Source: a virus. Taken from it: 34,996 nt of DNA. The number at the start of each line of letters is the position of its first letter. The first letter of the stretch is position 1. Below the pieces are notes generated by a model. That model saw only the letters and a program-made list of their open reading frames with translations, was not told the origin of the DNA and did not search any database. This document shows, in pieces, positions 1,576 to 5,654 of the stretch. A program made the translations under genes and the position numbers. The stretch covers positions 1 to 34,996 of IMG/VR virus record IMGVR_UViG_3300037502_000306; one strand, given 5' to 3'.

Positions 1576-1752
1576 TCATTTCCCTTTGAAGAGTTGACCG
1601 ATAATTTGTCCATCCTCAAATACATCGTAGACGAATGCTTTGAGAGTTTTCCTAACTGACAATCCATCTTTGCGACGGACTGCGGGTTGGCGGTCAAACT
1701 TGTGCTTGAGTGCGACGCGGTCGGCTTTACTGCGGATGTTTTGGTGTTTCAT
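1576..1752 (-). CDS. Small basic phage protein (58 aa), first gene of operon
   Basis: Translation gives a 58-residue, strongly basic protein starting MKHQNIRSKADRVALKHKFD and ending IGQLFKGK, with a stop (TGA 1578-1576) just before the MGYR gene. GGAGG lies eight bases upstream of the ATG. The C-terminal half (TLKAFVYDVFEDGQIIGQLF) reads as a beta hairpin. It is the first coding sequence after the long structured leader, so it should be the most directly affected by any leader-based control. The high Arg/Lys content suggests nucleic-acid contact. An N-like antitermination role is conceivable from position and charge but is pure inference. Confidence 0.6.
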   Translation of the reverse strand: MKHQNIRSKADRVALKHKFDRQPAVRRKDGLSVRKTLKAFVYDVFEDGQIIGQLFKGK

Positions 1753-2338
1753 GGTAATGCCTCCTAAAAGATTAAAGGTGGTGGTGCATTCGCACCCAGG
1801 GGGGCACTGCTCCTAAACAATGCCCCCGAAGTTGCAAACGATGTCGTGTGGACCGCGTCCACTTCCCGTACAACAATGTTGTATAGATACAACAATTCCA
1901 TAGAGATACGCTTTGTGTCCCCAGCTTTTTTGGCTGTCACCTGTAGGTGAAAGGTTAAGGACCGAGTCAGGGCCGGACTGCCAATCCGGTTGTGCGCACC
2001 CGCCTCTCATGCGGCGACTACGCGCTGACTCTCACATGCCGATACTGCTCGGTAACTATCCGTGTAGGTGCTTGGCTTTTTATCGTATGGGGTAGTAACC
2101 CAGTCCCTACCGCTTTGTTGGTTTTGCTATGCGGTTGCTGTGACTGCCTACCTCGTCATACGGCAGAGCCTACTTGGATAGCATTTCACCCTGCGGTGAA
2201 ACCCTACGCCTACGGCACGCCGATGTAAAAGACATCGGACACTAGGTTGTTAAAGAGCGACTCAGGGTGGGGTGAAACGATAAGTAGCGGTCTTGACTCT
2301 TGACGCCGCGCAAATCATTTTGCCCCGTGAGTATTGAC
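1753..2338 (-). promoter_or_regulatory. Long structured untranslated leader of leftward operon
   Basis: No convincing coding sequence lies in these roughly 580 bases. The short frames present lack ribosome-binding sites. The stretch starts just downstream of a good leftward promoter and ends at the first gene. Several inverted repeats are visible: GTTGTAT/ATACAAC at 1878-1893, CACCT/AGGTG near 1938-1949, CCGGA/TCCGG at 1973-1989, TTTCACC/GGTGAAA at 2184-2201, and CCGATGT/ACATCGG at 2220-2238. The RNA would be a heavily folded 5' leader. It could be a cis-regulatory antitermination leader or be processed into a stable non-coding RNA. Confidence 0.45.
2220..2259 (-). promoter_or_regulatory. nut-like site: boxA followed by stem-loop
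   Basis: Read leftward, positions 2259-2248 give CGCTCTTTAACA, an exact fit to the ribosomal-operon/phage boxA consensus that binds NusB-S10. Nine bases later a perfect 7-bp stem with a 5-base loop follows (CCGATGT, CTTTT, ACATCGG at 2238-2220), in the place a boxB hairpin would occupy in a lambdoid nut site. The site lies about 80 bases downstream of the leftward promoter, before the first gene. The pentaloop is not the GNRA-like loop of lambda boxB, so a lambda-type N protein is not implied. Confidence 0.45.
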
Positions 2339-2367
2339 ATTATATCATATAGCATATGGTTTGGCAA
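2339..2367 (-). promoter_or_regulatory. Leftward sigma70-type promoter
   Basis: On the minus strand a TTGCCA -35 box (2367-2362) is separated by exactly 17 bases from a perfect TATAAT -10 box (2344-2339). Transcription would start near 2332 and run through the structured leader into the operon beginning at 1752. Its 11 of 12 consensus match makes it the strongest promoter in the window. Unlike the other three leftward promoters, it lacks the adjacent ACCCTGAAATCATT element. The iteron-like motif cluster lies immediately upstream. Confidence 0.7.
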
Positions 2368-2410: not shown

Positions 2411-2867
2411 TGTTCCAGGTGTTCCAGGGCTGGAACAGGGGGTGTGGAACATGTGGAACAACGTAGTGTGGGGAGGGGAGAAGTGTAAGTTGTTGTTTTA
2501 TTTATATATTATATTTTATAAAAAATAAAAAAAGAGAGAAAAGTGTGCTGAAAGTGCGTTGTTCCAATGTTCCAGTGAAAAATGAACAGTTTCCCTTTTG
2601 AGCGTTTTTTTGTGTTGACGGATTTTGCATCGACTGCGCAGGAGGAATGATTCTGCCACCCCCTCTCATATGTTTTTTTGCTGGAACATTGGAACATTGG
2701 AACAAAACTCCGCCAAGCCATTGAAAACATTGAAATAAATTTGTTCCAGTGAAGTGCGTTTTTTGGAACATTGTTCCGCCGTGTTCCAGCTGGACCCGTA
2801 AAGATGTGTTCACAGTGCCCTGAAACGAAAAAGATGGGTCTTGCCTCTTGACAATTTGGCTGGAACA
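2411..2867. repeat. Cluster of TGTTCCA/TGGAACA motifs (iteron-like)
   Basis: Fourteen exact copies of TGTTCCA or its complement TGGAACA occur at 2411, 2420, 2431, 2445, 2454, 2560, 2568, 2682, 2690, 2698, 2742, 2764, 2782 and 2861, with a near copy at 2772. Many are spaced 8-9 bases apart in tandem (2411/2420, 2445/2454, 2560/2568, 2682/2690/2698). The region holds no credible gene, though translation of the repeats yields spurious frames. Such arrays are typical of replication-initiator or regulator binding sites. Together with the A+T run inside it, a replication origin is the favoured reading. Confidence 0.7.
2496..2533. other. 38-bp pure A+T tract, candidate DNA-unwinding element
   Basis: Thirty-eight consecutive bases contain no G or C. 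The tract sits between two groups of the TGTTCCA/TGGAACA motifs in a gene-free region, which is the arrangement of a duplex-unwinding element in an iteron-type origin. Runs of A on one side could also give intrinsic curvature. No gene overlaps it. Confidence 0.5.
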
Positions 2868-2982: not shown

Positions 2983-3570
2983 TTACTTCGTGGACCAGAA
3001 GGCGGCAAGTTGCCGCTCAAGTAATGCTAGGTCCGCCGTGGTGTCACCCCGCGAGATCGCGTTTTTACACCGCGTCTTTGCCGCGTCTAGGTGTTTCACG
3101 ATATACACCGCGAAGTCATCCACCGCCGCTTTAGTTGACTTGGTGTCATCCCCTAGCATCTCGCGAATGGCACCAAACAAATCGCCTAGTCTGTTGCCGC
3201 GATACTTCTTCCACTTGATGCGCCGCTCACTGATCAGACCATGTAATGCGGGGTCCGTGTTGCGAAGTTGCCCAAACGCCTGTTGCGAGTAGGCCATGGC
3301 GGTGTAAACCGAGACTGTGATCTTTTCCGCCTTTTCGGGCACTTTGCCGCTTGGGATTACCAAGTTGCCGTCTACGCGGACATAAGTCTTTTCGGGATAC
3401 TTCTCATGGTGACGCAACATCCAGCCGTCGTCTAATTCCGATTTGACATCATCGGGCATTGAGTCCAGCACAGTAGGACATTTGGCGTAAACAAACTTCG
3501 CCGCTTCTTCGATTGAGTCAACTGCTTTTGCCGCTTGGTAGGCGGCATCCTTATATGACTTGATGGTCAT
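2983..3570 (-). CDS. Conserved early phage protein, paralog A (195 aa)
   Basis: A soluble, helix-rich protein beginning MTIKSYKDAAYQAAKAV. It is clearly related to the next gene upstream (3787-4443). Shared blocks include VDGNxV, a KAEKxTxxVxTAxAYSQQAFG core near residues 90-110, and a C-terminal SRGDxTxDLxxLxxxLxAF block. The ATG at 3570 is chosen because AAGGAG lies eight bases upstream; a GTG at 3579 is too close to that site. It has its own promoter (3619-3647) and terminator-like hairpin. I do not recognise an enzymatic motif. Function unknown, possibly an early host-takeover or DNA-associated protein. Confidence 0.75.
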   Translation of the reverse strand: MTIKSYKDAAYQAAKAVDSIEEAAKFVYAKCPTVLDSMPDDVKSELDDGWMLRHHEKYPEKTYVRVDGNLVIPSGKVPEKAEKITVSVYTAMAYSQQAFGQLRNTDPALHGLISERRIKWKKYRGNRLGDLFGAIREMLGDDTKSTKAAVDDFAVYIVKHLDAAKTRCKNAISRGDTTADLALLERQLAAFWSTK

Positions 3571-3618
3571 GGTATGCACTCCTTAGTTAACCCGAAACAC
3601 CATTGTCTCGGTGAGTAT

Positions 3619-3647
3619 CTTTTAATACATGGCACGGGATAAGTAAA
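3619..3647 (-). promoter_or_regulatory. Leftward promoter module for gene ending at 2983
   Basis: The minus strand has TTTACT (3647-3642), a 17-base spacer and TAAAAG (3624-3619). The boxes are modest, but the surrounding 70 bases closely match the promoter at 5476-5504: ACCCTGAAATCATTTACTTA directly upstream and a GAGACAAT leader segment downstream. The shared module argues for a real and co-regulated promoter. Confidence 0.5.
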
Positions 3648-3699
3648 TGATTTCAGGGTATCGTGAAACCATGAAAACGGCGCTTGCCCACCCACGGGC

Positions 3700-3734
3700 G
3701 TGCGCGCACAGAAACATAACTGGCATCAAAGAGG
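3700..3734 (-). repeat. Intergenic repeat, copy 2 (core ATAACTGGCATC)
   Basis: The second copy has its core at 3716-3727, preceded by GTGCGCGCACAGAAAC and followed by AAAG. It lies between the terminator of the upstream gene (3736-3774) and the promoter of the downstream one. Confidence 0.55.
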
Positions 3735-3735
3735 C

Positions 3736-3774
3736 CAAAAAAATAAGCCCCCAGCCCCGAGGGGCTGAGGGCTT
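3736..3774 (-). terminator. Strong rho-independent terminator (leftward)
   Basis: Read leftward, an AAGCCCTCAGCCCC arm pairs with GGGGCTGGGGGCTT (3774 to 3745) to give about 14 bp with one G-U pair, followed at once by TATTTTTTT. It begins 12 bases after the stop of the gene at 3787 and is the best intrinsic terminator of the left arm. Confidence 0.8.
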
Positions 3775-3786
3775 GAGGGCTAAGCG

Positions 3787-4443
3787 TTACTTCATCTTAG
3801 CCTTGAACGCGACAAGAGCCGCGTCCAATTTCTTGAGATCGACTGTCTCATCGCCTCGGGATTGCGCGTTAACCGCGCGCTGGCGAATCATAGTCAATTG
3901 GCATTTGTCACCTACCATTAGCCAATCATAGAAAGCCGCAACCGGATTCTTTGTGCCCGCAATGTTATTGCGAGCCTTGTGTATCCGGCTTGCCTCGCGC
4001 TTGAGATCATTGAGGCAATTCGAGACATACTTATTGAAGCGGTCCCGAACGTCCTTGATCAAAGCGTGTTTGGCTGGCTCTTCATTCTTGAGCGCGCCAA
4101 AGGCTTGCTGGCTGTAAGCGAACGCTGTATGAACGTCAAGCGTAAACTTTTCAGCCTTGGCTTTCATTACCTCAGCCTCGGGCTTTTCAACCCAATTCCC
4201 GTCGACAGCCATAAAGTAACGGGTTGGGTTGATTTCGTCCCAGCGACGGGCATAGCCCGCGCGGAGATCAGCGCGGTTATCGTCCGAGAACGGCTCCGCC
4301 TCAACCCCGAGGCCAGGAATCAAGAGCATTAAACCCGAGACAATCGACTCGGTAACGCCCTTGACCTTGGCTTGTTGATAGGCTCCGTCAGTAACAGAAT
4401 TGACGGAGGTCGCGATGGTGATGGAATCTATATTAGTTTCCAT
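3787..4443 (-). CDS. Conserved early phage protein, paralog B (218 aa)
   Basis: The protein begins METNIDSITIATSVNSVTDG. It has an N-terminal extension relative to its paralog (2983-3570), including a short hydrophobic stretch SGLMLLIPGLGV. It then shares the YFMAVDGNWV region, the AEKFTLDVHTAFAYSQQAFG core and the C-terminal SRGDETVDLKKLDAALVAF block. The ATG has GGAGG four bases upstream. It has its own promoter at 4511-4539 and a strong terminator at its 3' end, so it is a single-gene unit. A tandem duplication followed by divergence is the simplest explanation. No known domain is recognised. Confidence 0.75.
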   Translation of the reverse strand: METNIDSITIATSVNSVTDGAYQQAKVKGVTESIVSGLMLLIPGLGVEAEPFSDDNRADLRAGYARRWDEINPTRYFMAVDGNWVEKPEAEVMKAKAEKFTLDVHTAFAYSQQAFGALKNEEPAKHALIKDVRDRFNKYVSNCLNDLKREASRIHKARNNIAGTKNPVAAFYDWLMVGDKCQLTMIRQRAVNAQSRGDETVDLKKLDAALVAFKAKMK

Positions 4444-4510: not shown

Positions 4511-4539
4511 TTTATACGATATGGCTGGGCATAAGGCAA
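4511..4539 (-). promoter_or_regulatory. Leftward promoter for paralog B gene
   Basis: Minus-strand TTGCCT (4539-4534), 17 bases, TATAAA (4516-4511): a good sigma70 match. It is preceded by GATTCACCCCACCCTGAAATC-like sequence shared with the other leftward promoter modules. A 7-bp hairpin (GCCCGAG/CTCGGGC) lies in the leader just before the ribosome-binding site. Confidence 0.6.
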
Positions 4540-4591
4540 TGATTTCAGGGTGGGGTGAATCGATCATCACCCGCCCAGCCGCGCCCACCTA

Positions 4592-4625
4592 GCGCGGGCG
4601 CCGACACATAACTGGCATCAAAGGG
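4592..4625 (-). repeat. Intergenic repeat, copy 3 (core ATAACTGGCATC)
   Basis: The third copy has its core at 4608-4619, preceded by a GC-rich GCGCGGGCGCCGACAC segment. It directly follows the terminator hairpin of the gene ending at 4642, matching the placement of copies 1 and 2. Confidence 0.55.
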
Positions 4626-4636
4626 GCCGAAGCCCC
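4623..4636 (-). terminator. Short GC-rich hairpin terminator (leftward)
   Basis: Read leftward, GGGGC, TTCG, GCCCC form a 5-bp stem with a UUCG tetraloop followed by TTTGATG, five bases after the stop of the gene at 4642. It is a compact intrinsic terminator, probably moderate in strength. Confidence 0.55.
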
Positions 4637-5475: not shown

Positions 5476-5504
5476 CTTATAAACTAGGGTAGGGGATAAG
5501 TAAA
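5476..5504 (-). promoter_or_regulatory. Leftward promoter at divergent junction
   Basis: On the minus strand TTTACT (5504-5499), 17 bases, TATAAG (5481-5476). It is preceded by ACCCTGAAATCA and followed by a leader carrying a 7-bp inverted repeat (CCGAGAC/GTCTCGG, about 5447-5466). The whole module matches the promoter at 3619-3647 almost base for base outside the spacer. Confidence 0.55.
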
Positions 5505-5654
5505 TGATTTCAGGGTAGGGGGCCATCCCCCCACCCCCCTAATACCCGTCGATGGGACCCGCCGCACCCTATACCCTGTGATACGCACAAATCATCTAGC
5601 AAATTTCAAGGGGATTAAGTGAGGTACTTATTGCCGGATTTTTCATTTTCTGCC

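Follow-up and report, generated by a model that had tools for sequence, protein, structure and literature searches.

When a boxA and a hairpin lie side by side just behind an early phage promoter, do they form a nut site for an N-type antiterminator, or do they belong to something else? The left end of a 35-kb linear virus record, analyzed here over its whole stretch of 34,996 nucleotides (hereafter the window), raises this question. BoxA is a bacterial signal for completing the transcription of long untranslated RNAs, for example ribosomal RNA. The initial annotation had described a strong leftward promoter, an exact boxA and a perfect 7-bp stem with a pentaloop, and suggested that the phage may control its early leftward operon by N-type processive antitermination, with the 58-aa product of the first gene as a candidate for N. 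As checks, it named conservation of the boxA and covariation of the stem in related phages. All three elements are present as described (Table 1); the promoter is exact in position and, with the TG of its extended -10, represents the best promoter match within the first 8 kb.

Table 1. Features of the leftward early region, in window coordinates.
Feature	Position	Strand	Remark
GTTCCA/TGGAAC repeat cluster around AT-rich core	2411..2795		14 sites/500 bp
Strong sigma-70-type promoter, extended -10 (TTGCCA-17-TATAAT)	2339..2367	minus	11/12 consensus matches
TTCAC..TGA element, directly 5' of boxA	2262..2281	minus	degenerate inverted repeat in window, good in most relatives
boxA CGCTCTTTAACA	2248..2259	minus	matches GYTCTTTAANA; 11/12 columns invariant
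Hairpin H1, 7 bp, loop CTTTT; predicted first helix of RNA	2220..2238	minus	CCGATGT-CTTTT-ACATCGG; pairing conserved
P2 5' strand CGTGCCG	2213..2219	minus	pairs with 2035-2041
Invariant core TAGGCGTAGG	2203..2212	minus	one variable column in 16 sequences
Variable peripheral arm(s), including TTTCACC..GGTGAAA hairpin	2053..2202	minus	12 to 217 nt in relatives
Invariant core CCGAGCAGTA	2043..2052	minus	CCGAGNAGTA in every member
P2 3' strand CGGCATG	2035..2041	minus	covaries with 2213-2219
Core pattern without boxA			TAGGNGTAGG and CCGAGNAGTA, with complementary P2 bridging them
3' core domain (model R1), seven helices and P2	1906..2060	minus	pairing and double changes
Second structured module with loop pseudoknot	1768..1843	minus	directly 5' of ribosome-binding site
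58-aa basic protein, net charge +9, first operon gene	1576..1752	minus	found with window-type RNAs

The gamma-proteobacterial boxA consensus is GYTCTTTAANA (PMC5725501). The window contains a single match to this consensus, namely GCTCTTTAACA at 2258-2248. By chance, 0.14 matches would be expected per window, and at least one match occurred in 12 of 100 shuffles; the motif alone is thus not significant, and the case rests on the comparison among relatives. The terminase of the window was used to fetch 80 loci, and BLAST of the leader against these identified the leader as the conserved part of the left end. Nine leaders could be aligned (the window and eight relatives), in which 11 of 12 boxA columns were invariant, as opposed to 3 of the 62 columns that separate boxA from the start site. 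Because these relatives were picked by their terminase and not by boxA, the conservation was not built into the sample. The conservation that the initial annotation had proposed to look for was therefore found, and the consensus match is shared by every one of the ten distinct window-type members, the partial L030 among them. The extended -10 had 8 of 11 columns invariant in the same alignment and also occurs in relatives without the RNA described below. Model R2 also picks up the boxA sites of E. coli rrn operons.

Pairing in H1 is kept throughout: 60 of 60 cells are paired among the ten window-type members, with as many as four kinds of pair at one position, and 46 of 46 in a second, more distant group (group B), so that the covariation proposed as a check was observed as well. 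In the window-type group, H1 is 18-19 nt long and begins 8 nt from TCTTTAACAA in all members (nine bases from boxA in the window). None of its 19 columns is invariant, and the loop varies in both sequence and length, with CTTTT, GAG, CATCAA and GCAA among the variants. The reading of this hairpin as an N-type boxB was not supported. By the alignments, H1 is predicted to be a structural stem adjoining helix P2 of a larger RNA, and not a protein-recognized loop like boxB of lambda.

A lambda-type nut site, at which the 58-aa protein would bind H1 as its boxB and act as an N-like antiterminator, would agree with the order of promoter, boxA, hairpin and small basic first gene, and with the constant spacing of 8 nt between TCTTTAACAA and H1 among window-type members. 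The nutL and nutR sites of lambda with N likewise belong to an early phage operon and have the hairpin within about 10 nt of boxA. The locus differs from them in the unconserved loop and sequence of its hairpin, in a protein that does not track the hairpin, and in the large RNA attached. The 58-aa frame is a real gene, as judged from three close pairs in which synonymous changes outnumber replacements; every window-type member with enough sequence has a relative of it, and no other locus examined does. The protein, however, has no match to an N-like family, nor any in Pfam, PHROGs or phage records; BLAST against named phages returned nothing, and an AlphaFold model (a helix and three strands, pLDDT 72) matched no solved structure. 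L029 and L087 share 57 of 60 residues of this protein and have unrelated hairpins, whereas L029 and L018 share the hairpin and have very different proteins. Group B lacks the protein altogether; its first gene encodes a zinc-finger-like protein related to the product of the window gene at 882-1106, or unrelated small proteins. Since protein and hairpin evolve apart and group B has no such protein, it is an unlikely N-type partner, and its candidacy for N is poor.

The notion of boxA, RNA and 58-aa gene as one inseparable cassette was likewise refuted by group B. We also dropped a correlated loss of an RNA arm and the C-terminal half of the protein in L018, where this half may be merely diverged. 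In relatives, the leftward operon carries replication genes (DNA polymerase, exonuclease, ATPase), together with an HNH endonuclease in the phage of L018. No strong intrinsic terminator was seen over about 15 kb of this operon in two relatives, and relatives without the RNA run the early operon from the same promoter position without a boxA. Taken with the uncoupled hairpin and protein, this makes a nut site highly improbable.

The hairpin is predicted to open a larger conserved, untranslated RNA of about 490 nt, led by boxA and encoded on the minus strand (2259-1768). The six P2 pairs next to the core occur as ten distinct helix sequences and are 95% paired, and none of 5000 shuffles was as good. 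For the 3' core, 96.1% of the cells were paired over 36 pairs tested, and double changes were counted in 34 cells, where shuffles gave 10.3 and none of 500 reached that number; pairing dropped to 33-41% in all of the slid controls. The pseudoknotted module, two hairpins with a pseudoknot linking the second loop to upstream sequence, was 95.2% paired, with double changes in 26 cells compared with 8.5 in shuffles (0 of 500). As both structures were derived from these alignments, small ones of 8-16 rows, the covariation counts are somewhat biased in their favor. In the alignments of the 3' core and the pseudoknotted module, G-U cells numbered 28 and A-C cells one, an excess that places the RNA on the minus strand, the same as the promoter. 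Single-sequence folding gave z-scores of -3.1 to -3.3, which we took merely as a hint, and a GTGTCC/GGACAC helix closing the whole window RNA in such a fold was dropped, as it is not kept in relatives.

The first gene starts 304-595 nt past boxA with the covarying minus-strand structure in between, and RNA and operon would be co-transcribed. Two members show natural variants of the architecture. L018:4782-4998 represents a short form, in which the arm between the invariant core strands measures 12 nt and is almost wholly absent, and in L035:2543-2772 the 3' core domain is extended by an insertion of about 75 nt, 3' of the GTCGCC..GGCGG hairpin. A search of Rfam (4227 families, including GOLLD, ROOL and other large RNAs) with the window, L013, L029, L035, L039, L087 and nine group B loci gave no covariance-model match over the RNA, whether the cutoff was the gathering score or a lax E-value. 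Both the pseudoknot and the invariant strands that flank P2 suggest that the RNA has a task beyond that of a spacer, and we infer that it acts in its own right, either in trans as a stable RNA or in cis as a leader.

The RNA was found in a lineage of uncultured aquatic phages; the sequences in the comparison are all metagenomic. A loose pattern (TTTAACAA, 24-40 nt, GTAGGNGTAGG) returned 64 stretches, among which, besides chance matches in apparently ordinary genes, were nine further distinct phage sequences with the RNA core. These constitute group B, and L243, L264 and L268 were each found in one additional near-identical copy. Their elements follow the order promoter, boxA, hairpin, P2 strand, TAGGCGTAGG, variable arm, CCGAGCAGTA, complementary P2 strand and a TAACC...CAG hairpin region, and their terminase, where in reach, is 55-58% identical to that of the window. 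A promoter -10 lies 60-120 nt upstream in all but one, which is cut by the contig end. BoxA is partly imposed in these nine members by the TTTAACAA of the search pattern, and its first position is C instead of G in two of them (L237 and L264). When 2.6 Mb of collected sequence was scanned for the P2 core without requiring boxA, all matches carried a boxA, a partly independent result given that many of the loci had come through patterns containing boxA.

Model R1 matched the window group exclusively. The RNA was not found in the whole records of the named relatives HTVC023P, DSL-LC04 and 023Pt_psg01, nor the P2 core in the parts examined of HTVC027P and Pag-Yong1. A promoter-boxA scan yielded at least 120 stretches, near chance by the estimated size of the collection, and none of 80 loci tested matched R1. 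BLAST of the RNA against named phages and against plasmids gave no match, and neither did scans of species genomes with one RNA motif and with the terminase. Two further observations concern the distant members: in L237, L239, L243, L264 and L285, the stretch from the RNA to the first gene contains a hairpin and, about 8 nt further on, a U-tract, not a canonical terminator but possibly regulatory, and the contig of L285 bears a tRNA gene on the minus strand (2385-2455, by Rfam).

In fifteen other relatives, whose terminase is 79-85% identical to that of the window, the repeat cluster is retained, as is a comparable extended -10 promoter. Their leader measures 80-137 nt and is devoid of boxA, RNA and 58-aa gene, often with TTCAC..GTGAA at the same distance. 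The joint absence of boxA and RNA in these fifteen empty sites implies that the presence of boxA is tied to that of the RNA, not to the operon or the promoter. It also bears on whether the boxA could be a functionless chance likeness, for which an exact match expected in 12% of shuffled windows might speak. We find this scarcely credible, as the motif is invariant in terminase-selected relatives amid an otherwise fast-changing leader and is missing together with the RNA in others; as far as chance goes, invariance and joint absence refute it. Mapped onto the terminase tree for the close group, presence or absence requires two changes, which is compatible with one origin. With the distant members included, gain or loss would have to have occurred more than once, or the site must have been exchanged.

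Several other elements surround the promoter. The TTCAC..TGA element occupies +40 to +48 relative to the -10 in most members and several empty sites, with further copies at two other promoters of the window, and could be an operator or an RNA hairpin. As a TTCAC-N-GTGAA inverted repeat, it keeps a near-fixed distance past the early promoter whether the RNA is present or not (empty sites such as L024, L066 and L070), a candidate operator. The GTTCCA/TGGAAC repeats flank an AT-rich stretch at 2497-2535 and are kept in relatives with and without the RNA, with 9 to 12 sites at the corresponding place in members; the cluster, next to the early promoter, is a candidate for an origin of replication with iterons. 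A 53-nt module (CCCTGAAATCATT.ACTTATCCC...TATAA, minus strand) occurs three times (3620-3672, 4512-4564, 5477-5529), each time 5' of a leftward gene, and its copies probably represent repeated phage promoters with an extra upstream element. A 38-nt element, GCGCGCACAGAAACATAACTGGCATCAAAGAGGCC, is also found three times (2921-2958, 3702-3739, 4594-4631), upstream of or between those leftward genes, and has BLAST matches in several relatives. The leftward genes at 2983-3579 and 3787-4443 (198 and 218 aa) have similar starts, are conserved in relatives and have no PHROGs match.

How could a boxA serve such an RNA? In a reporter, a boxA rescued a 567-bp untranslated leader from Rho (PMC4807359), and in CRISPR arrays it protects long untranslated RNA from Rho (PMC12691694, PMC7862264). 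We lean towards a reading, to which we give slightly better than an even chance, in which host Nus factors load at boxA and carry a Rho-resistant RNA polymerase through the long folded, untranslated leader. The strong early promoter would produce a transcript with an rrn-type boxA in its first 60-120 nt, and host NusB-S10 and other Nus factors would bind the boxA as it emerges from RNA polymerase. The Nus-loaded polymerase would resist Rho, complete the highly folded untranslated RNA of 330-490 nt and reach the early operon behind it. H1 would form as the first helix, and the adjoining P2 would join the invariant strands TAGGCGTAGG and CCGAGCAGTA.

Nus binding, Rho-resistance and expression are inferred here, and the presence and specificity of NusB-S10 in the host are assumed. 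The rrn-type boxA leaders of E. coli rRNA and CRISPR arrays are alike in having a consensus boxA followed by a long untranslated structured RNA and in needing no cognate hairpin-binding phage protein; they differ in that the leader here is an early phage leader, whose RNA is not of the rRNA or CRISPR-array kind and runs into a protein operon. The hairpin and U-tract, about 8 nt apart, before the first gene of some distant members are not needed by a boxA shield against Rho and count against it. The proposal of the initial annotation that the early leftward operon is under processive antitermination thus survives in part: the conserved boxA, the strong promoter and the replication-gene operon support it and make antitermination as such, through Rho-resistance from boxA, likely, whereas its N-type form does not stand.

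The RNA could also do more with the Nus complex than be completed by it. As a new class of large phage RNA, it might recruit the host Nus complex through its own boxA, with the invariant P2 core holding or reprogramming the complex, as an RNA antiterminator acting on the early operon or as a decoy diverting Nus factors from the synthesis of host rRNA, which we regard as possible but rather doubtful. Should the folded RNA itself stay on the polymerase as in HK022 put, whose direct target is the beta-prime zinc-binding domain, with boxA as an extra anchor, it would be a processive antiterminator by which the terminators of the early operon are ignored. Its place right after the early promoter, in cis before the replication operon, its compact pseudoknotted fold with invariant internal-loop strands, and the fact that put acts without a protein (PMC9378689) would suit such a role, and put is likewise a structured RNA just past an early phage promoter. 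However, put comprises about 70 nt and two stem-loops and PMC9378689 does not mention boxA, whereas the RNA here is five to seven times larger (330-490 nt) and has a boxA, a pseudoknot and other conserved strands. In addition, RNA-less relatives run the operon from the same promoter position, and the operon of two members showed no strong intrinsic terminators that would have to be ignored. We therefore consider a put-like antiterminator unlikely.

A cis-regulatory leader of the first genes, resembling an attenuator or riboswitch, in which boxA merely sustains transcription to the decision point, appears distinctly unlikely. The pseudoknotted module of the window group does end right before the ribosome-binding site, and several distant members have a hairpin and U-tract right before the first gene; yet the RNA core is kept while the first gene differs between the groups, and 150-450 nt separate the most conserved part from the start codon downstream. 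The strong promoter and stable fold might instead provide an abundant boxA RNA that titrates NusB-S10, lowering host rRNA synthesis or freeing the transcription machinery for the phage, in line with the report that lambda NutL RNA at high level titrates Nus factors and lowers rRNA expression (PMC4807359). For such a decoy, boxA alone would suffice, and the invariant core strands and the pseudoknot would be left unexplained, which makes it very unlikely. The boxA shield against Rho thus remains the reading that we prefer.

Large, highly structured untranslated RNAs of phages are represented by GOLLD and ROOL. The RNA described here is alike in size, structure and lack of translation; it differs in having no Rfam match, in a window without a tRNA, and in the boxA and the protein operon directly behind. 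A conserved, pseudoknotted RNA family absent from Rfam is thereby added to the small number of large phage RNAs known so far. In contrast to GOLLD and ROOL, its biology can be approached through the boxA in front, and nature provides matched pairs of phages that differ in carrying the RNA, with which its task could be probed. Our results suggest that phages may use boxA to complete long untranslated RNAs, as bacteria do for rRNA and CRISPR arrays.
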